Below, in pieces: positions 4,175-18,908 of a DNA stretch of 23,028 nt (the stretch's first letter is position 1; the number at the start of each line of letters is the position of its first letter). Below the pieces are notes generated by a model, which was not told the origin of the DNA, made no database searches, and saw only the letters and a list, made by a program, of their open reading frames with translations. The stretch spans positions 1 to 23,028 of IMG/VR virus record IMGVR_UViG_3300036846_001120; one strand, 5' to 3'. The translations under genes and the position numbers were made by a program. The stretch is from a virus.

Positions 4175-7100
4175 TCACTGCCCGATGTTGCCATAGCGCA
4201 ACGCTCTCTGGGCGCTGATGTCCCGCGGCGTTACCCCGATCGGCAGACCCGTAGCCTGCGCCTGCGCGGACTGGCGCATGTGGTTTGCAAGCTCCCGCTG
4301 GAACCCGGCCTGCGGCGGCACCATGCCGGGGTGTTCCTGCTGCCACTTCTGCGCTTCACCCATCCAGGTGTTGAACATCCCCTGGTCGCCCCGCGTATAT
4401 GCCACCTCCATGTGCCGGACGATATTCGACGAATTAAGCTCACGCATGGTGCGCAGCCCGACTGCCTCCCGGGTGACTTCCTGGTACTCGGCTTGTTTTG
4501 CTGGGTCGATTCCAAGCGCCGTCAACATGATATCGTACGCACTCGGTGACCCAATCGGCAGCTTCTGCCCTGTCAGATTGTCGACAAATCCTCGCTCACC
4601 AAGCCGGTACGCTTCAAGACCACCTTTCAAATTCTCGGGTACCACCTTGGTCATCCCATTGAGATAGTCGCCATTCAACATATCGCGTGCCGCGCTTGCG
4701 AAGTTGGCAAGATCACTAACCGCCGGCCCAGCCGCCGACTTGAGCCAATCACGCTCCATGTCTTCCAGCTTACGTTTCTCGAAAGCAATATTCAAAGTTG
4801 CCGACCCCGGTATAATATCGCCCTCACCCCAATGAGCGAAATCCACCCCTGCCGCCCGCGGCAGCCCACGAGCAACGATCTCGCCCATATCCTTGCCAAA
4901 TGTGTCACTTAAGAAATTTCGATAGTTGGCGACAAGATCATGATCATCCCGGTTGGTGAACCAATCAGCCAGCCTGTCGTAGACCGTGGCCGCCACCGAC
5001 ACCATAGGCAGCCCCAGCGTGCCCGCAAAAAACGTCGTTGCCGCCGCATGTGAAACCAACCATCTGGTAGCCTCTGCACGCTGCTGCGGGTCACCCGTAA
5101 ACAAATTACGTACATTGTTATAAAGAAACCCCGACATGCGACTGCGCCAGCCCATGAACTGCATAAGAAAAGGTGCAGCCTGTCCCAAATCACCACTCTT
5201 GGTAAACTGCCGAGCATTGAAGCCAGCTGTCCAGTTGCCCTGACTTTTGTCTATCATCTCAGAAATGAAATCTGCTTTTGAGTTGACGAACTGGCTCTTG
5301 TACGGTGTATCTCTGTACAAAGCGTCCGCCGCGAATAAAGCTGTCAATCTCGGGGCCAACTCGGAATAAATCCCCATGGAGTTCAGCGCCTTGAATGCCG
5401 CGCCAGTACGCCCTTGCGCCAACGGCGAATGCTCAGTCTGCGTCGGCGAATACATGGCGCCTAGGTCACCCCGCACCGCCGAATCCATGATCAACTTGAT
5501 TTCACCCGACGGCACACCACCAGCCTCCAGAGCCTCCTGGGATATCCCGGCCGTAAATTTGTCAGGCCCTTTCGCGATGGCACGAAGTGCCCGAAAGGTA
5601 GGCGCCTGAGCACCCAGTATCGCGCTCGCTGCAGGGCCATATCCGTGCGTTGCCGCAAGCACGGGGTAAAGTGTTGTAGCCACCTGCGACTGCAGCATCA
5701 GGGCGTAAGGCACCGAGAACCCGATATGCATCGTATGTGTCACGTGCCGGGCCGCATCGAGCATCGTGGACGGAGCGTAGGTTGCCTGATTTCTATCGCG
5801 CTGCATCAACTCCGATACCGCCTGTGAAACACCTAATGCAGTATTAAGCGGGATAGTCTGATCGTGGTTGATCTCCCTGACCCGATCGAGCATATTCTGG
5901 GTAGCTACACCAAGTTCAGGATCATTCGTCGTACGTGCCAGGTGACGCGACATTACCTCGTTTGCATAAAGCGAACTCTGTATCATGTTCTTGCTGAAGC
6001 CCTGGACATTCGCCCGCTGCGACATAAGACGAGTAATCGAATTTTCTGGTGTTGTATTCAGCAAAGCACGTTTGAAGTCTAGCATATGCGCGTCAAAAGC
6101 ATCGTTCAGCTTAGCTTGCGTAGCCGCATCGAACTCCGTCAAATCCGGACGGCTGGCCGCCTCCGCTGCAACAACCCGCTTCATCGCATCAGTGGATATT
6201 TGCTGGAACATGTCTGTGACTTTGCCACGACCGATAGAATCTTTTGTCTGATCCAGAAAACCCTTGGCTTGAGCCTCCACCACTGAACGAGATAATGCCG
6301 CTGCCTCAGAAGCATTTTTTACCTTCATGTACACGGTTGGATGCTCACCACCCAGCATAATTGCAACATCCGGCGCAACACGCGCCATGTGGTTCTGAAA
6401 CTGGGCAAGCTTGGTCTGATCAACCTGCGTCGTCCCTTCCTCTTCCCCCGGCTGCATGGCCAGCTTAGCTACGACGAAATAATCCCCATCCCGCCCAAGA
6501 TGGAAGTAAGGCGCGGCAGTTGCGTTAACCTGCTGCTGTTTGATACTAGCGAGGCCCTTTCGTAGAGAATCATTGGTTTTCGTAAGCTCGGACAACCTCT
6601 CTGCCGATGGTGGATTCTTCACATCATCAATCTGCGCCTTGACCGTATCGCGAGCCGCGCTCAACGCCCCCATCCTGTCGTCAAACTCTTTTATATAGAA
6701 AGCCTCCCTCTTAAGGGGATCGGTGTGTATTTTAGGTTGGTTGTATTGAAATTCCTTGAACGCATCCGTCGTATGCAGACCATTCGCCCGTTCAAGCTCC
6801 TGAAGTCCATCGACAAATTTTGCATGGATATCCCCGGACGCAATTGCCCGAAACGCCTCATAAGTCTGCCGGCCACCAGGTACCCCCCCAAGCTGATTCC
6901 AATCGTTCATGTACTCACTATGCGCCTGCACCTTCGCCGGATTCTCGCGAACCTCGGCAGTCTGCTCAGGAAGAGATTTCCTTGGATCAATCCCAAAAGC
7001 AGTAGCAGTCATCAATTTATTGACAAGGTCATAACCTGCTTGCGGAAGAGCCTTGGACGCTTGTGCAGCACGAGAACCTGCAGCCTTCAAAATATCTGCG

Positions 7101-10100
7101 CGTGGTGCTTCCACCTTCTTGACATTCTCCCACTGCTGCATCGCAGGATTAACATCCCTATAGGCCCACACCAGATTATCTGTATCGGTAAGCCCATGGA
7201 AAAACCTACGCAGTCCTTCTCGTGGATTGAGTGACTTATCCTTGAGTTGTTGTGTGACATTAGCACGACCTTCGTCCGCACCTGCCGCTGCAGTACCAGT
7301 TCCCTTATCCGCCACGCGCGCGTAACTATCACGCCCCAACCAGACATTAGGATACTGCTGCTGCTCCTTCAGCAGATCGTCGCCGTGCGACATGATGCGA
7401 TCGAACGCATTGAACAAACGCGGAGGGAGCCCGATCATGCCGCGCGCCGCGTCAATGAACCGGTCCCAGAGGCTGGTACCCTCTACGAATTGCGACTTCA
7501 GGAAAGAACGATAGACCGGGTTGGCAACTCCCTCCGCGACCATTTCGTGTGCATCGGTTATGCCGGCGTGATCCCCCTTGCTCTTGAGCTGATCGTAGAT
7601 GCCGCGCATCGCCTGCGCTGCGGCACTGGTGCCCTCAAGCGCCCGGGACAATGCTGCGTGGACCGCCTCATGGAGTGTGGTTATCGTCGCGTTTGCAGCA
7701 TTGTAGAGCACCGAAGTCTGCTGCTTCGGAAAATACTCGCCCTCCTTGCCGGCAACACCATCCCTGAAAGCCAGTGTTACGTTTTTCGGCACACCTTGCT
7801 TGACCCACGCCGCAAGCTCAGCTTCCTCCGGGTCGGCACTATGCTCGGCGATGTGATCGAGCGCGTCGTGCATCTTGACGCCACGCTGCGACATGTCCGT
7901 CACGTCGGCATCGAGCTGCGTCACTGGCAGTCCGTCTCGCGAATTAATGACCCGAGCTCGCGAGTCTTCGGGTACACTCAGGGCGCGCGTCTCCTGAAGC
8001 ACTGCTTCATATCGCGTATTCAGATACGCATTGACCATGCCCCGCGTCTTCTGGCTGAGTCCGGTGAGCCGGATATTGCCCAAGTTATCCGCGTCGGGAT
8101 CAGCCTCGGGGTTCGCCGCCAGAGCCTTCTGATACTCCGCCGGCGAATCCGCATCGTTGACGGTCTTTAACCAGTCTTCGTGTTGCTTGATCGCCGCAAG
8201 CGCATCCGAACGATCCTCCAGCACCTTCTTCAATCCCTCTAACGCACGGCGTGCCTTGGCCATGCGTTCATCGAGATCACCCGTTGGTGCAGGTACTGCC
8301 TCGGCGCGCGGCGACGCTGAGGATGCTGCGGCGTCCGCAGGCAGCTGCGCCTTCTCTGCAACTGCAGACCGCAGATTCTCAGCCCTGGTATTGAGCACCC
8401 TGGCCATGCCGGGGTTGTTCTTCGCATTCGCCTCAGACCCATTTATGAATTTTGCCTCATCGGCAAACTCCTGTGCAGCCTCTGGATTGGTTCTAGCTAT
8501 CTCAACAATACGAGGCGCAACTCCACTGAGCGTAGCTGCGCGATCGTCCACAGTCTCGATCGGGGCATCGCTGGCCACAGGCCGCGGAACCCGCCGGAGG
8601 AAGTCCGGGATACCTTCCAGCTCAGCTACCGGCGCAACTACCGGAGCCACAACAGGAGGCGCAGCAGCTTCCGGCCGGACGAGACCCGGAAGTTCCTCAG
8701 CAGGGCTTGCCACATCGCTTTGAAACTCTAACAGCTTATTGTGCCGTGAGAGTATTCTGCTCAATGCTGCGCTTTTTGATGTGCTTGGTGCCACAGGGCC
8801 GTTAAACTTGTTGGCTATGTCAACAACGGTTTCCCGTGGAAGCTCCTTCAGGCTTTGGTATACCGGCTGGAAAGCAGCGTTGTCGCCAAGAGCGGCTGTT
8901 AACTCAGCGACTTTTGCACCGCTACGGCGTGCGCCAGCGCTCTGAAAGTCAGTGCGTTCTCCTGGAGCAACCGGAGGCTCGGCAGCCGGTGCAACTGCCG
9001 GCGCAACTTCCTCCGGCCGGATACGGCGTGCACCGGCGCTCTGAAAGTCGATACGCTCTCCTGGAGCGACTGACGGTTCGGCTGCCGGTGCAGCGACAAG
9101 TCCTGGCGACTCTTCAGCCGGCCGCAACTCATCCTTGACCTTACCCTTCGCATCAAGAATATCGAGCGCCTTGCCCCATTTCTCTTGTACTTTTGTCAGG
9201 TCGTTACCTGCAACTTCACGTGCAATAAGCTCATCGACCAACGGTTGTCGCATCGCCGCCTGTACCTCAGGCGTCGCTTTTCCATACTCTGCTGTAGCTT
9301 CTTTGAATCTACCCTTAGTGAAATCTATTACATACGGAGGGGGTGCAGCAGCGGGAGGCACAGCGGCAGGAGGCACAGCAGCAGGAGGCGCAGCAGCGGG
9401 AAGCACAGCGGCAGGAGGCGCAGCAGCGGGAGGTGCAGCAGCAGGAGATGCAGCAGCAGGAGGTTCGGCAGCAGGAGGTTCGGCAGCAGGAGGTCCAGCA
9501 GCGGGAGGTGCAGCAGCGGGAAGTGCAGCAGCGGGAGGCACAGCAGCAGGAGGTACATCAAGAACAGGAGGAGCCAGATCACCTTGCCTGGCTTGATTAC
9601 GGTCGATCGCACCGGCGATCACCCGGTAACGATCTGCTGTACCTGTGAACCCATCTTTCTCGGCACGATCTGCAAGCCTGTACAACTGGTCCGGTGTTTG
9701 CTGCAAGGCATCGGCAAACTGACCTTTCTCGATTGCCCCAGCCGTACGCGCCATGAACTGCGCACGAGCTGGATCAGCCCCCTGCAGCTCATCAGCCATA
9801 CCGCGCAAGACAGCCGGAATATTTCCACCCGGCTGAGCCGGCGGTAACGACGGTGGTGGTTCAAGCGCCTGAGCAGTTGATTTATCGAGGTCCCCAGTCT
9901 TAATGGTATTCGCATTTTTTCCAGCAAGCTCACGCATGCCGCCAAACGCACCACCAACAATCCCGCCAAGTGCCGCACCACTCAAGGCCTGCCGCACAAC
10001 ATCAGATGCCCGATCCGCGAACCCACGATCAGGATCACCCATCTGCTGGGTCAACCACTCAGTCGCACCTCCAGCAAAACCCTGCGTCAATGCAGAATAC

Positions 10101-10750
10101 TTGATCCCCTGCAAAATCCCTTTCCCGAAATACGCCTCCAACTTCCCCGGCAGCCATCCCTGCACAACAGCTTCCGGCACACCAAGCACCAATGCCTTGC
10201 CTGGCTGGGTGAGTTCGCCCGTCTCGCTAATCTGCCGCTGGACATTCGCGCCAGCCGCAAATGGAAACATCGTCGCTGCGGCACCCGCCAAACCACGCAT
10301 AGACGCGGCTCTTGCCGCCGCTGCAATCGCGGCTGCACTCGCTCCAGCCGCTGCTTCCGGCGCTGTTGCTGCCGCAAGTGCTCCCCCACCAAGAGCCGCA
10401 AGAGTAGTCGGCACCATGCGCCCGATCTGGTACCCGATCCCGGAAGGTGACCAGGGATTGGCTTCCAGGTCAGGGCGCGCATACGACTGCTCGCGGGCAT
10501 GCGCCGCATCGGCAAAGTCGGAAAAAGATTGGGCCGTATCAGTCGCACCTACCCCCTGAGCCACGGCCTGGAGCGCTCGCGCTCCTTCCGACATCGCCCC
10601 ATGAAAGCCGGACATAATACCGGAGGTGAACCAGTCGCCAGTGCCGGTCGCCGGAATGTCAGCCGGCGCCGGCCGCGGCGGCGCCTGCTGGCTTGGATCA
10701 TATGCCAGCAAGTGGTCCGAGAACGACGGGAAACTCTCAAGCAACGCCAT
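4175..10750 (-). CDS. Giant polyvalent internal virion/ejection protein with HEXXH motif
   Basis: This single 2191-residue frame has no enzymatic annotation that can be read with certainty. The N-terminal 100 residues are polar; residues about 112-170 and 250-275 are Gly/Ala-rich hydrophobic stretches that could enter a membrane. Residues about 399-470 are a PPAA repeat spacer, followed by a duplicated APGERxDFQSAGARR block. HEAVH at 1027-1031 with HEMVAEG (Glu1073) about 42 residues later matches the zincin metallopeptidase layout seen in polyvalent phage and plasmid proteins. Residues about 1870-1965 resemble the large polyvalent protein-associated (LPD38-type) domain. Helical linkers fill the rest. 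Position between the Ala-rich virion protein and the tail genes suggests a packaged protein ejected with DNA. No T7/N4-type RNA polymerase motif was recognised. SD is weak (AGG). Confidence 0.85.
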   Translation of the reverse strand: MALLESFPSFSDHLLAYDPSQQAPPRPAPADIPATGTGDWFTSGIMSGFHGAMSEGARALQAVAQGVGATDTAQSFSDFADAAHAREQSYARPDLEANPWSPSGIGYQIGRMVPTTLAALGGGALAAATAPEAAAGASAAAIAAAARAASMRGLAGAAATMFPFAAGANVQRQISETGELTQPGKALVLGVPEAVVQGWLPGKLEAYFGKGILQGIKYSALTQGFAGGATEWLTQQMGDPDRGFADRASDVVRQALSGAALGGIVGGAFGGMRELAGKNANTIKTGDLDKSTAQALEPPPSLPPAQPGGNIPAVLRGMADELQGADPARAQFMARTAGAIEKGQFADALQQTPDQLYRLADRAEKDGFTGTADRYRVIAGAIDRNQARQGDLAPPVLDVPPAAVPPAAALPAAAPPAAGPPAAEPPAAEPPAAASPAAAPPAAAPPAAVLPAAAPPAAVPPAAVPPAAAPPPYVIDFTKGRFKEATAEYGKATPEVQAAMRQPLVDELIAREVAGNDLTKVQEKWGKALDILDAKGKVKDELRPAEESPGLVAAPAAEPSVAPGERIDFQSAGARRIRPEEVAPAVAPAAEPPVAPGERTDFQSAGARRSGAKVAELTAALGDNAAFQPVYQSLKELPRETVVDIANKFNGPVAPSTSKSAALSRILSRHNKLLEFQSDVASPAEELPGLVRPEAAAPPVVAPVVAPVAELEGIPDFLRRVPRPVASDAPIETVDDRAATLSGVAPRIVEIARTNPEAAQEFADEAKFINGSEANAKNNPGMARVLNTRAENLRSAVAEKAQLPADAAASSASPRAEAVPAPTGDLDERMAKARRALEGLKKVLEDRSDALAAIKQHEDWLKTVNDADSPAEYQKALAANPEADPDADNLGNIRLTGLSQKTRGMVNAYLNTRYEAVLQETRALSVPEDSRARVINSRDGLPVTQLDADVTDMSQRGVKMHDALDHIAEHSADPEEAELAAWVKQGVPKNVTLAFRDGVAGKEGEYFPKQQTSVLYNAANATITTLHEAVHAALSRALEGTSAAAQAMRGIYDQLKSKGDHAGITDAHEMVAEGVANPVYRSFLKSQFVEGTSLWDRFIDAARGMIGLPPRLFNAFDRIMSHGDDLLKEQQQYPNVWLGRDSYARVADKGTGTAAAGADEGRANVTQQLKDKSLNPREGLRRFFHGLTDTDNLVWAYRDVNPAMQQWENVKKVEAPRADILKAAGSRAAQASKALPQAGYDLVNKLMTATAFGIDPRKSLPEQTAEVRENPAKVQAHSEYMNDWNQLGGVPGGRQTYEAFRAIASGDIHAKFVDGLQELERANGLHTTDAFKEFQYNQPKIHTDPLKREAFYIKEFDDRMGALSAARDTVKAQIDDVKNPPSAERLSELTKTNDSLRKGLASIKQQQVNATAAPYFHLGRDGDYFVVAKLAMQPGEEEGTTQVDQTKLAQFQNHMARVAPDVAIMLGGEHPTVYMKVKNASEAAALSRSVVEAQAKGFLDQTKDSIGRGKVTDMFQQISTDAMKRVVAAEAASRPDLTEFDAATQAKLNDAFDAHMLDFKRALLNTTPENSITRLMSQRANVQGFSKNMIQSSLYANEVMSRHLARTTNDPELGVATQNMLDRVREINHDQTIPLNTALGVSQAVSELMQRDRNQATYAPSTMLDAARHVTHTMHIGFSVPYALMLQSQVATTLYPVLAATHGYGPAASAILGAQAPTFRALRAIAKGPDKFTAGISQEALEAGGVPSGEIKLIMDSAVRGDLGAMYSPTQTEHSPLAQGRTGAAFKALNSMGIYSELAPRLTALFAADALYRDTPYKSQFVNSKADFISEMIDKSQGNWTAGFNARQFTKSGDLGQAAPFLMQFMGWRSRMSGFLYNNVRNLFTGDPQQRAEATRWLVSHAAATTFFAGTLGLPMVSVAATVYDRLADWFTNRDDHDLVANYRNFLSDTFGKDMGEIVARGLPRAAGVDFAHWGEGDIIPGSATLNIAFEKRKLEDMERDWLKSAAGPAVSDLANFASAARDMLNGDYLNGMTKVVPENLKGGLEAYRLGERGFVDNLTGQKLPIGSPSAYDIMLTALGIDPAKQAEYQEVTREAVGLRTMRELNSSNIVRHMEVAYTRGDQGMFNTWMGEAQKWQQEHPGMVPPQAGFQRELANHMRQSAQAQATGLPIGVTPRDISAQRALRYGNIGQ
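8923..9092 (-). repeat. Internal 99-base-spaced duplication in giant gene
   Basis: Two copies of about 71 bases at 8923-8993 and 9022-9092 are offset by 99 bases (33 codons). They encode the block APGERxDFQSAGARR twice within a Pro/Ala-rich linker. Several substitutions separate the copies, so the duplication is not recent. The frame is kept. Confidence 0.8.
9343..9554 (-). repeat. PPAA-coding repeat tract in giant gene
   Basis: A tract of about 210 bases built from 12- and 15-base units (variants of GCAGCAGGAGGC) encodes PPAAxPPAA repeats at residues about 399-470 of the giant protein. The units are in frame, so gain or loss of a unit alters spacer length only. The likely role is an extended linker between the N-terminal hydrophobic part and the rest of the protein. 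Confidence 0.85.
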
Positions 10751-16235: not shown

Positions 16236-16673
16236 CTACTTTGCCTTGGCCACAGGTGGCTGAAGCACAAGATCAATCTTGCCCGTGGCAGGCGTGCCCG
16301 TCTCGATCACCATGATCGTGACTACCGCTTCTGCCGGCAAACCGCCATCGCTCACTATGTCGGCCGTAATTGTTGCAGGTCCAGGGGCAGTTGCTGCCAG
16401 CGTGGCGCTCGTCGGGTCAGTATCGCTTGCCGTTACCGTCACAGGACCTGTGGACGACCATTCGGAAGACGCAATATTGACAGCGGTGCCATTCACATCC
16501 GTGAAACTTACCGTCGCGGTTCCGGTGCCACCCACCTCCATCTGCTGGGGAGGTGGAGGTGCAGCCTTAGGTGCTTGCTTGAGACGAGCCTCGTTCTGCT
16601 CAGGTGTAAGACTGACCACAAACTGCACGGGGTCGGTCTTGGGTTGCTCGGATGCAGGCTGATCATCAGTCAC
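16236..16673 (-). CDS. Ig-like domain capsid-associated protein
   Basis: This 145-residue protein starts at a GTG (16673) preceded by GAGGAG at 8 bases, and ends 31 bases before the next start. After an acidic, Pro-rich N-terminal part (residues 1-45, with APPPPQQ) comes a single beta-sandwich: GGTGTATVSFTDVNGT, SSTGPVTVTASD, TSATLAATAPGPATITADIV, PAEAVVTIMVIETG. This is the bacterial Ig-like (Big_2-type) pattern common on phage capsids and tails, where such domains bind host surfaces or sugars weakly. It is the first structural gene after the capsid gene apart from the inserted HNH gene, so capsid decoration is likely. Its SD overlaps the stop codon of that HNH gene. Confidence 0.78.
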   Translation of the reverse strand: MTDDQPASEQPKTDPVQFVVSLTPEQNEARLKQAPKAAPPPPQQMEVGGTGTATVSFTDVNGTAVNIASSEWSSTGPVTVTASDTDPTSATLAATAPGPATITADIVSDGGLPAEAVVTIMVIETGTPATGKIDLVLQPPVAKAK

Positions 16674-16684
16674 TTGAAATCTCC

Positions 16685-17188
16685 TCAGGTTCTCGCGAAC
16701 TCGCCGTGATGTTCTGCGGCAGCTTTTCTGTACGCCTCCGAAGCCTCTTCAGCAGTCTTGAAGCTACCAAGGTAAAGTCGTTTGCCATTCACTCCGATCG
16801 TCGCCACGTAGTACCCACACTGATTACCATGCGCCGATCGCTGGAACCGTACTCCCTTAAAGCCCGTACTGCTATCATCGCGCACAGTGCGGTTCCGCTG
16901 ATTTTCCTGCCGCGTCGCCTTGCGAAGATTACTCCAACAGTTGTTCTTCGTATTGTGATCGATGTGGTCAACTTCACCTTGTGGAAATTTCCCAGTCATC
17001 CACAAGAAAGCCAGCCTGGATGCATGATAGTTCGCTCCATCGATCCTGATCTTACGGTACCCATTATCAAAGTACCCTGCTGTATCACCTACCCTTACCC
17101 GCGTTCGCTTCACCCGCCAGGTGAATTGCCCAGTCTCGAAGTTGTAATCCAGCACCTCACGCACACGGTCGCAACTCAATTCCGACAT
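16685..17188 (-). CDS. HNH-AP2 homing-type endonuclease (downstream of capsid gene)
   Basis: This 167-residue protein has the two-part layout of free-standing HNH-AP2 homing endonucleases. An N-terminal YNFETGQFTWRVKRTR block is followed by the HNH core at about 90-120 (EVDHIDHNTKNNCWSNLRKAT, with D-H, N and N-L-R positions), then NRTVRDDSSTGFKGVRF and the AP2 DNA-binding strands ending YLGSFKTAEEASEAYRKAA. These enzymes cut DNA to spread their own gene. It sits directly after the major capsid gene, and its TGA lies inside the SD of the next gene, as if inserted between two structural genes. GGAGGA precedes the ATG at 17188 but can pair into a hairpin (17193-17224). A related 168-residue copy flanks the capsid gene on the other side. 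Confidence 0.9.
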   Translation of the reverse strand: MSELSCDRVREVLDYNFETGQFTWRVKRTRVRVGDTAGYFDNGYRKIRIDGANYHASRLAFLWMTGKFPQGEVDHIDHNTKNNCWSNLRKATRQENQRNRTVRDDSSTGFKGVRFQRSAHGNQCGYYVATIGVNGKRLYLGSFKTAEEASEAYRKAAAEHHGEFART

Positions 17189-17192
17189 CGCA

Positions 17193-17224
17193 CATTCCTC
17201 CGCTTGACAGATGCGGGGGATATG
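17193..17224 (-). promoter_or_regulatory. Hairpin covering the HNH ribosome binding site
   Basis: On the minus strand TCCCCCGC (17213-17220) can pair with GCGGAGGA (17196-17203), seven of eight bases, across a nine-base loop. The pairing extends outward (CATA with TGTG) after one bulged base. GGAGGA, the SD of the endonuclease, lies inside the stem. Translation would be reduced when this RNA folds. Confidence 0.55.
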
Positions 17225-17231
17225 TTACAAT
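17204..17231 (+). promoter_or_regulatory. Sigma70-like promoter pattern, antisense to capsid gene
   Basis: The plus strand reads TTGACA (17204-17209), 16 bases, TACAAT (17226-17231), close to bacterial consensus but in the direction opposite to the operon. It would transcribe antisense across the capsid gene. It overlaps the hairpin over the HNH ribosome binding site, so the match could be a by-product of that structure or chance. Confidence 0.3.
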
Positions 17232-17252
17232 GGGTTTACTTTCGATAGTGCA

Positions 17253-18320
17253 TCATGATGTCGCAGTAACTTCGAGCCTCGCCATGAATGCGTCCTGCAG
17301 GATCACAGTGCTGGTATACAGCTTCCAGCCCACCGTCCCACGTTGAGCCAACGGATCGCCTGGTGCAGGCTTAGGATTGACCACCATTGGTGTCATCGAA
17401 GACTTGCCCTTGAGCGGCACGATGCCGAAAGCATCACGACCAAAATAAAGCACAGGGTACACATCCCAGTTGACACCGCTGGTCGAGCGGTATGTCGTCG
17501 CGCCGCTGGTGGCGGCGCCGGCGTTGGGAAATGGCGCGATCACCGTCGAGCTCAGATACCGGGTCTGCTCAACCGTGCCGATCTCGCCCTCGAACGGCGA
17601 TGAATGCGGCCCGTAGCTCGCCACCGGCACGAAGCCGATCATGTTGCGGATATCGCTTTCCAGATCGGGATGAACGAGACCGAAGTACGCGGCTTCCACC
17701 GACTTGGTCTGGAAGTCGGGATTGCTCGCCACGACCTGGGAAATCTTCCTGGCATTCTGCCGATTGAGACCTGTAGACACCCGGCGCTGATCAGTCAGGG
17801 TAATGACGCCGGCGACATTCGCGCGCCCCGCAACCAGATTCTGATACCAGACATTGGTGCCTGCCTTGAGCGTATTAAATCGTAGAGTCTCTACTGTTAC
17901 TGCCGCCTGCTCGCCCAGGATGTCCGTGGACTGCTGCAGCACCGGATCGGTGTGGGTATCCTCGATCACATCAGTAATGGTGATGTAATCACCATACTGG
18001 TATAGCTGCACCGTATAATCCTGATTCGCGAGCATGGACCCCGCAGGCGTCACACCCTCCACCAGGGGCGTCAGCGCCAGTGGTATGAAGAACGGCTGCC
18101 CGGCGCCGTTGGTACCTCCGCCGTTCGGACCGGCCGTGCCGGTCGCACCCTGCAGGAAGTAGCGCCGAAACTTAGCGGTCTGCGTCGAGTTGGTCGGGAG
18201 GGGATACGTCTGGCCAAATTTCTCGATATGAAGGTATGGCATCGCCCGCTTAAGCATACGTACGACGCTGTATGCAGCCACCGCGGGAGAAATATCACCA
18301 TAGCTGGTCACGGCAACCAT
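17253..18320 (-). CDS. Major capsid protein, N4-gp56 type
   Basis: This 355-residue protein forms the capsid shell. It fits the N4-gp56 major capsid family: an N-terminal arm (MVAVTSYGDISPAVAAYSVVRML), LHIEKFGQTYPLPTNSTQTAKFRRY, then a core with VEGVTPAG, TVQLYQYGDYITITDVIEDTH, an E-helix (QSTDILGEQAAVTVETLRFNTL), TLTDQRRVSTGLNRQNARKI, FGLVHPDLESDIRNM, VEQTRYLSS, and a C-terminal VGWKLYTSTVILQDAFMARLEV. Length is usual for the family. The ATG at 18320 is chosen over a TTG six bases upstream because AGGAG lies 7 bases before it. That SD overlaps the stop of the upstream HNH gene. It lies between the scaffold candidate and the decoration genes, flanked by two HNH-AP2 endonucleases. Confidence 0.93.
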   Translation of the reverse strand: MVAVTSYGDISPAVAAYSVVRMLKRAMPYLHIEKFGQTYPLPTNSTQTAKFRRYFLQGATGTAGPNGGGTNGAGQPFFIPLALTPLVEGVTPAGSMLANQDYTVQLYQYGDYITITDVIEDTHTDPVLQQSTDILGEQAAVTVETLRFNTLKAGTNVWYQNLVAGRANVAGVITLTDQRRVSTGLNRQNARKISQVVASNPDFQTKSVEAAYFGLVHPDLESDIRNMIGFVPVASYGPHSSPFEGEIGTVEQTRYLSSTVIAPFPNAGAATSGATTYRSTSGVNWDVYPVLYFGRDAFGIVPLKGKSSMTPMVVNPKPAPGDPLAQRGTVGWKLYTSTVILQDAFMARLEVTATS

Positions 18321-18329
18321 GTTCAACTC

Positions 18330-18836
18330 CTAGGTTGTACAGGCGAAGTCGCCGTGCAGCTTCTCAGCCGCACGCACATACGCCGCATGAGCTTCCTCTG
18401 GTGTCTTAAAATATCCGAGGAAGGTGGTTTTGCGATGCCTTTTAATCTGAGAAAACCAACGTCTCCGTCGCGCATGCCAAGAAACACCCTTAAGACCCGT
18501 CGTATTGTTAGCCTGCTGCGGTCGATTGCACTGATTCTGCGATCTCGTACACACCCGGAGGTTCACCCAACGATCGTCCGTTGGAATACGATTTACGTGA
18601 TCCACAAACTCTGGCATCTCCCCGGTCATGTAAAGCACCGCTAAGTGCGAAGTCATATACAACCTGTCAAAGAGCCTAATCTGATAATACCCGATCGGAC
18701 GCAAAGACCCAGCACGTCGGCCTTTTATCGCCTTGTTGCTTCGCGGCTTCGCCCAAACGAAGATTCCAGTCTCCGGATCGTACACCAGGCAGCTCTTGAG
18801 CTCTTCCTGCGTCAGCGTTACCCTGTTCAAAGCCAT
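18330..18836 (-). CDS. HNH-AP2 homing-type endonuclease (upstream of capsid gene)
   Basis: The protein is 168 residues from the ATG at 18836; a longer frame to a TTG at 18905 adds an Arg-rich stretch that is probably not translated. The order of parts is the same as in the copy at 16685-17188: YDPETGIFVWAKPRS, then an HNH core (FVDHVNRIPTDDRWVNLRVCTRSQNQCN) and an AP2-like domain (TTGLKGVSWHARRRRWFSQI, TTFLGYFKTPEEAHAAYVRAAEKLHG). The two proteins share about a third of their residues by eye, most strongly in the HNH and AP2 blocks, so they are homologs but not a recent duplicate. Its TAG overlaps the SD of the capsid gene. A short hairpin (18840-18856) lies over its own SD. It is inserted between scaffold and capsid genes. 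Confidence 0.88.
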   Translation of the reverse strand: MALNRVTLTQEELKSCLVYDPETGIFVWAKPRSNKAIKGRRAGSLRPIGYYQIRLFDRLYMTSHLAVLYMTGEMPEFVDHVNRIPTDDRWVNLRVCTRSQNQCNRPQQANNTTGLKGVSWHARRRRWFSQIKRHRKTTFLGYFKTPEEAHAAYVRAAEKLHGDFACTT

Positions 18837-18839
18837 GAT

Positions 18840-18856
18840 CGAGATTCTCGCTCTCG
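18840..18856 (-). promoter_or_regulatory. Small hairpin at HNH ribosome binding site
   Basis: On the minus strand CGAGA and TCTCG form a perfect five-base stem around a seven-base loop, ending three bases before the ATG at 18836. The weak SD (GAGA or GCGAGA) lies in the stem or loop. It is shorter than the hairpin at the other endonuclease gene and could be chance. Confidence 0.35.
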
Positions 18857-18868
18857 GTTGATGGTCAG

Positions 18869-18900
18869 GGCCGATCCGGCGTCGAAAGCGCCGCTCGGCC
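18869..18900 (-). other. Intergenic stem-loop after scaffold gene
   Basis: GGCCGA and TCGGCC at the ends, with an inner GGCG/CGCC pairing around a seven-base loop, make a two-tier hairpin. It starts nine bases after the stop of the scaffold candidate. No U-run follows on either strand, so a standard intrinsic terminator is not supported; RNA processing, attenuation or mRNA protection are possible. Confidence 0.5.
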
Positions 18901-18908
18901 CGCAAAGT

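Follow-up and report, generated by a model that had tools for sequence, protein, structure and literature searches.

The window, by which we mean the whole stretch of DNA analyzed, is a 23-kb virus contig with a run of head genes on the minus strand (Table 1). In the direction of that strand, a connector-like gene is followed by one gene without identification, a first HNH gene, the major capsid gene, a second HNH gene, and further genes. Profile searches assigned the second HNH gene to Pfam HNH_3 (E 3.4e-13) and phrog_99 (E 1.4e-62), with both the HNH catalytic motif and the family profile present in its product, and the gene directly upstream to the phrog_1357 major head protein (E 1.2e-56) and Pfam Phage_capsid_4. 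Comparison of the second HNH gene with its copy in the related locus L002 gave a dN of 0.077 and a dS of 1.17, which indicates strong purifying selection. The 64 nt between the capsid stop codon and the HNH start codon contain a hairpin; at the other end of the gene, the arrangement of the HNH stop codon and the Shine-Dalgarno sequence (SD) of the next gene is similar in the relatives. An alanine/proline-rich long repeat was also seen at about 9300-9600 of the window, inside a 2191-aa gene (4175-10750, minus strand). No DNA match to the window was found among phage isolates, and no relatives were found in genome contigs searched with the HNH query; genome contigs searched with the capsid gave one match, an alphaproteobacterial MAG.

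Table 1. Features of the capsid-HNH region of the window
Feature	Positions	Strand	Details
Connector-like gene of the head-gene run		-	phrog_332
First HNH gene, just upstream of the capsid gene	18330..18905	-	HNH_3 plus AP2; SD almost absent
Major capsid gene, directly upstream of the second HNH gene	17253..18320	-	Stop codon 17255-17253
Conserved block	17226..17251	.	GCACTATCGAAAGTAAACCCATTGTA (minus strand) with near-palindrome ACTTTCGATAGT (17238-17249, +)
SD- and AUG-sequestering RNA hairpin	17186..17232	-	About 17 pairs, two bulges, one mismatch, 9-nt loop 17212-17204
5' arm	17213..17232	-	Anti-SD, anti-start
Antisense sigma70-like promoter (predicted)	17204..17231	+	TTGACA-N16-TACAAT; 11/12, TG before -10 (consensus scan)
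3' arm	17186..17203	-	Contains SD and start codon
Shine-Dalgarno sequence	17196..17201	-	GGAGGA
Second HNH gene (free-standing, homing-type endonuclease)	16685..17188	-	167 aa, ATG start; HNH_3, phrog_99
Right junction	16671..16687	-	HNH stop TGA, then at once GGAG, the SD of the next gene (GTG start 16673)

In the core stem of the hairpin, TCCCCCGC (17220-17213) pairs with GCGGAGGA (17203-17196), and an outer stem is formed by ACAU (17225-17222) with AUGU (17195-17192) and by CAUUGU (17232-17227) with GCGAUG (17191-17186). Since the outer pairing reaches the start codon, the AUG is buried as well as the SD. The original prediction had described a homing-type HNH endonuclease gene downstream of the capsid gene, with an SD that pairs with an upstream arm at seven of eight positions and with further outer pairing. 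The profile assignments agree with this description, the count for the core is exact (the exception is C17217/A17199), and the outer pairing is longer than had been claimed, with the AUG included. Neither of the two checks that it had named refuted it: the SD is paired in the minimum-energy fold, and the stem is kept in homologous leaders despite changed letters. The fold of 17180-17240 (minus strand), in which the SD is paired, had a minimum free energy of -19.3 kcal/mol (z -2.77), and 3 of 200 shuffles were equally good; the 51 nt originally proposed gave -14.6 (z -1.67). The hairpin persisted in a 161-nt context, and opening the SD was costly for each of the upstream 5' ends tested, while an RNA starting at or after about 17218 left it nearly free.

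The cost of opening the SD of the window gene was 8.9 kcal/mol, a value reached by 8 of 400 upstream-only shuffles (p=0.022). This is modest evidence when the leader is taken alone; nine leaders taken together are far beyond chance. Some 20 nt would separate the stem from a ribosome stopping at the capsid stop codon, a distance at which the ribosome would probably not melt it. An intrinsic terminator was rejected, given that no G+C-rich stem with a T run occurs at the position of the hairpin on the minus strand, and Rfam covariance models gave no match at E<=1 in 17000-17500. The first HNH gene is not hidden by such a hairpin, nor is the SD hidden in its relatives upstream of capsid genes. A G+C-rich inverted repeat was seen before this first gene, and CGAGA..TCTCG adjoins its ATG.

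A search of virus contigs with the capsid protein gave 195 relatives, of which 80 were kept, and about 320 loci were collected in all after further scans. Most of these lack an HNH gene at the site in question; it is present in nine nonredundant leaders, namely, the window (WIN), L002, L034, L041, L044, L049/L061, L063, L168, and L175. Among the HNH proteins aligned, that of L002 is 87% identical to that of the window, and all others are 39 to 43% identical to it. The SD or the start codon lies inside a stem in all nine leaders, although the letters have changed. Between WIN and L002, whose stem is GTACGTTCCCTG/CAGGGGATGTGC, both arms changed from CCGC/GCGG to CCUG/CAGG, and two-arm changes likewise keep the stem in the seven further leaders: ACTCTCCCC/GGGGAGAGT in L041, ACACTCTCT/AGGGAGTGT in L044, GTCTCTCC/GGAGAGAC in L063, GGTCTCCCGT/ACGGGAGACC in L168, TTTCCTGGAG/CTCCAGGAGA in L175, TGAAGCG/CGCTTCA plus CCATCGT/ACGATGG in L034, and CTCAG..TCCTA/TAGGA..CTGAG in L061, for which the minimum-energy fold in isolation differs.

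To quantify the hiding of the SD, a single rule was used in every gene to pick the start preceded by the best SD, and the free-energy cost of opening that SD was computed on the segment from -60 to +18. The median cost for the nine leaders was 11.2 kcal/mol, compared with 3.0 for other HNH genes (n=117), 3.4 for the genes that follow empty sites (n=51), 4.0 for capsid genes (n=63), and 3.6 for other genes (n=1023; Mann-Whitney p 8e-6 for the nine leaders against the last group). A cost of at least 7 kcal/mol was found in seven of the nine leaders, in 16% of the capsid leaders, and in 12% of the other genes. It was also reached in only 9% of the other HNH genes, so that a general property of HNH genes was rejected, and in 4% of the leaders of next genes at empty sites, so that a general property of the insertion site was rejected as well. 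A composition effect of a nearby promoter was rejected in the same way, since only 7 of 90 other genes with good promoters reach 7 kcal/mol. Dinucleotide shuffling of the upstream part gave p values from 0.0025 to 0.19 for the nine leaders (Fisher combined p=1.7e-9). The weak cases were L034 and L049/L061, with a cost below 5 kcal/mol and shuffle p values of 0.15 to 0.19.

Seven of the nine leaders have a good sigma70-like promoter just upstream, with its -10 element abutting the 5' arm; a promoter score of at least 6 was obtained for these seven and for 4 to 18% of the controls. Examples are TTGACA-18-TACACT in L044, TTGACG-18-TATAGT in L063, TTGACG-15-TATACT in L041, and TTGACA-15-CATAAT in L175. 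The pattern in the relatives is CTTGAC..TATAVT, and the C that precedes the -35 hexamer in several leaders is shared with the alphaproteobacterial promoter consensus, CTTGAC(N17)CTATAT (PMC2573895). Because the -10 element touches the 5' arm, the predicted RNA would start within the hairpin and lack this arm. In five of the seven promoter-bearing leaders, opening the SD takes 10-15 kcal/mol on the full leader but 1-3 kcal/mol on RNA from the predicted start. A sense promoter yielding RNA without the 5' arm was not recognized in the window (best match score 4.0, which is ordinary for controls) or in L002. The promoters of the relatives are sigma70-like; a late promoter motif is not known for these phages.

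A strict double criterion, requiring a promoter score of at least 6 and a relief of at least 5 kcal/mol by the predicted start, selected five of the nine leaders, 2 of 1012 other genes, none of 51 empty-site leaders, 1 of 63 capsid leaders, and 4 of 117 other HNH genes. All four of these HNH genes lie behind unrelated capsid genes, whose products match the major head protein profiles phrog_371 (L132, L221, L226) and phrog_9953 (L142). Among all HNH genes collected, a cost of at least 7 kcal/mol was found for 11 of 17 behind any recognized capsid gene and for 7 of 109 others (p 1.4e-7), an association that is somewhat post hoc, in that the matches to the strict criterion prompted the look-up of upstream genes and those of the other HNH genes were checked afterwards. 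This check covered chiefly upstream proteins of roughly 230 aa or more and left about a dozen upstream proteins without identification. It brought up one more capsid context, phrog_1328 (L187, L212, L244), in which the HNH genes have no such hairpin. The layout of promoter and SD-hiding hairpin was also seen at the edge of L101 (10-65, plus strand), where TTGACA-N17-TATAGT and then GCCCTCC/GGAGGGC over the SD precede a small non-HNH gene.

The hairpin region of the window also contains a predicted antisense promoter, whose -35 element sits in the loop and whose -10 element lies at the base of the 5' arm. L002 keeps both hexamers (12/12) and the 16-nt spacing, although 8 of the 16 spacer positions have changed and its loop has about 9 nt more. 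Over the hexamers and the 20 nt that follow, WIN and L002 agree at 30 of 32 positions, compared with a third-codon-position identity of 0.59 (p 1e-5). The conserved block at 17226-17251 is likewise identical at 24 of 26 positions despite that third-position identity; it was found only in the WIN lineage, and a phage-wide promoter motif was rejected since the block was not found elsewhere. An antisense score of at least 9.5 was obtained for five of the nine leaders (WIN, L002, L041, L044, and L063) and for 5 of 1243 control leaders. The antisense RNA would start near 17238 and head into the capsid gene from behind. This predicted start points away from the HNH gene, and the RNA would therefore overlap only with the capsid read-through message. 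The antisense promoter may be a by-product of a bidirectional promoter, a means of interfering with read-through, or part of an operator that includes the near-palindrome.

Filled and empty sites were compared in the relatives. L039 has an empty site, whereas L043 and L041 are filled, and the flanks of L039 and L043 are identical at 99.3% (1264 nt) and 99.9% (1392 nt). Relative to L039, a stretch of roughly 32 nt with the capsid-end hairpin is exchanged for a cassette of roughly 545 nt. The capsid genes of L039 and L041 differ at 4 of 1068 positions (1059, 1062, 1065, and 1067); the changes in L041 are synonymous and fall in the last codons, the stop codon changes from TAA to TGA, and the protein is unchanged. 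Such a recoded capsid end in the filled allele would be expected if the target of the endonuclease spanned the end of the capsid gene. The TGA stop codon of the filled allele falls within the TTGACG of the cassette promoter. L061 and L063, which are about 92% identical in this region, differ in the cassette that occupies the site; either cassette has a hairpin and a promoter of its own, and the two HNH proteins are about 62% identical. The occurrence of near-identical phages with and without the cassette indicates, as judged from these alignments, that it is mobile; presence and absence at one site, with an altered presumed target in the filled allele, were seen in the relatives only.

These observations probably reflect a mobile HNH cassette whose start is folded shut on capsid read-through RNA and which usually has its own promoter. 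The cassette would have entered the head-gene run just after the major capsid gene, ahead of the structural gene that comes next, and RNA entering from the capsid gene would fold the HNH start shut, so that the strong capsid message would yield little endonuclease. In the family, RNA from the cassette's own sigma70-like promoter would start inside the hairpin without the 5' arm and could be translated; the gene would stay silent when it is read through and be expressed from its own start. In the window the hairpin half of this arrangement is intact, and the gene probably has low-level expression or a promoter that was not recognized. The use of the hairpin is most likely to block translation from capsid read-through mRNA, and the silenced transcript is most plausibly late read-through, because the hairpin-entering promoter of the relatives is sigma70-like. 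The hairpin and its conservation, the promoter and its place in the relatives, and the filled and empty sites of near-identical phages are seen directly in the sequences, from which we infer the effect on translation, the activity of the promoters, and the reason for the silencing. Weighing against this reading are the lack of a recognizable sense promoter in WIN and L002, the two weak leaders, the phrog_1328 context without hairpins, and the first HNH gene, whose start is not hidden in this manner.

Other explanations were weighed against this one. Chance pairing between a purine-rich SD and a pyrimidine-rich stretch would be compatible with the window leader taken alone (p about 0.02) and with the 12% of ordinary genes that reach 7 kcal/mol, but it is highly improbable in view of the combined family p of 1.7e-9 and the long stems with different letters in nine leaders. 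It is distinctly unlikely that the structure serves the capsid gene, standing in for the G+C-rich capsid-end hairpin as a 3'-end stabilizer or attenuator, with burial of the SD as a side effect. A strong hairpin of the type GGGGGCTTCGGCCCCC does occur just after the capsid stop codon in most empty-site relatives, and it is this hairpin that the cassette replaces. At empty sites, however, it seldom hides the SD of the next gene (at least 7 kcal/mol in 4%), whereas the cassette stems lie on the SD or the start every time; moreover, no T run follows the window stem, and the capsid-end hairpin is weak or absent in the closest relatives of WIN.

The conserved element could also act mainly at the DNA level, as an antisense or bidirectional promoter combined with an operator, the RNA hairpin being partly a by-product of symmetry. 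The antisense hexamers and their constant spacing are kept between WIN and L002 though spacer and loop changed, and comparable scores are found in 0.5% or less of the controls. This explanation is nevertheless unlikely: the stem arms differ from the promoter hexamers, the stems change together with the SD and not with the hexamers, and L034, L049, L168, and L175 have the hairpin and the sense promoter without the antisense promoter. It is conceivable, though doubtful, that a compact two-level shield against read-through has arisen in the HNH cassettes that settle behind major capsid genes, or has been retained by them in phages that are unrelated. In that case, a ribosome binding site hairpin whose 5' arm is entered by a sense sigma70 promoter would be joined, in several lineages including that of the window, by a nested antisense promoter whose outward RNA or transcription would act only on capsid read-through.

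The preferred reading, a mobile cassette silenced on capsid read-through RNA, would carry a control known from few T4-like endonuclease genes over to uncultured phages whose capsids are of several unrelated types. It would also tie this hairpin control to one context, a place downstream of the phage gene that normally has the highest expression. This suggests that survival behind the capsid gene requires silence on its message, while a host-type promoter supplies the enzyme. If true, it would yield a simple rule by which the tolerance of selfish genes for strong operons could be predicted, and it would be a natural design where a gene has to be insulated from read-through. For homing assays, a ready target exists in the near-identical phages with filled and empty sites.

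Hairpins that sequester the ribosome binding site, combined with a promoter whose RNA omits the 5' part, are known from I-TevI, I-TevII, I-TevIII, and segB of T4 and from mobE of Aeromonas phage Aeh1 (PMC2988022, PMC3014915). The likeness lies in an endonuclease gene within another transcription unit, with a hairpin that covers its consensus SD when the RNA comes from read-through and, in the relatives studied here, a promoter at the 5' arm whose own RNA would be free; mobE is also a free-standing HNH gene. The phages are unrelated and the insertion site is another one, and here an antisense promoter sits in the loop and no sense promoter was recognized in the window. The promoters of that group are of the T4 type (late for I-TevI), giving genes that are off early and on late, whereas those of the relatives here are sigma70-like, and because the promoter type differs, the timing probably differs as well. 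Of the I-TevI-like control put forward in the original prediction, the conserved SD-hiding hairpin stands, but the proposal that it keeps the endonuclease low early is not supported, since the promoters of the relatives are host-type in appearance and not late.

In IS10/Tn10 (and in IS50 and IS200), the start is folded shut on outside transcripts and open on the element's own transcript, and an outward antisense promoter lies nearby. The logic is the same as here, a mobile-element gene being shielded from external promoters with an antisense promoter close by; however, the antisense RNA of IS10 overlaps the start of its own mRNA, whereas the antisense start predicted here points away. Another free-standing endonuclease gene next to the major capsid gene is segD of T4 (genes 23/24; PMC2988022). 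That gene is antisense and lies between terminators, whereas the HNH gene described here is codirectional with the capsid gene and protected by a hairpin.
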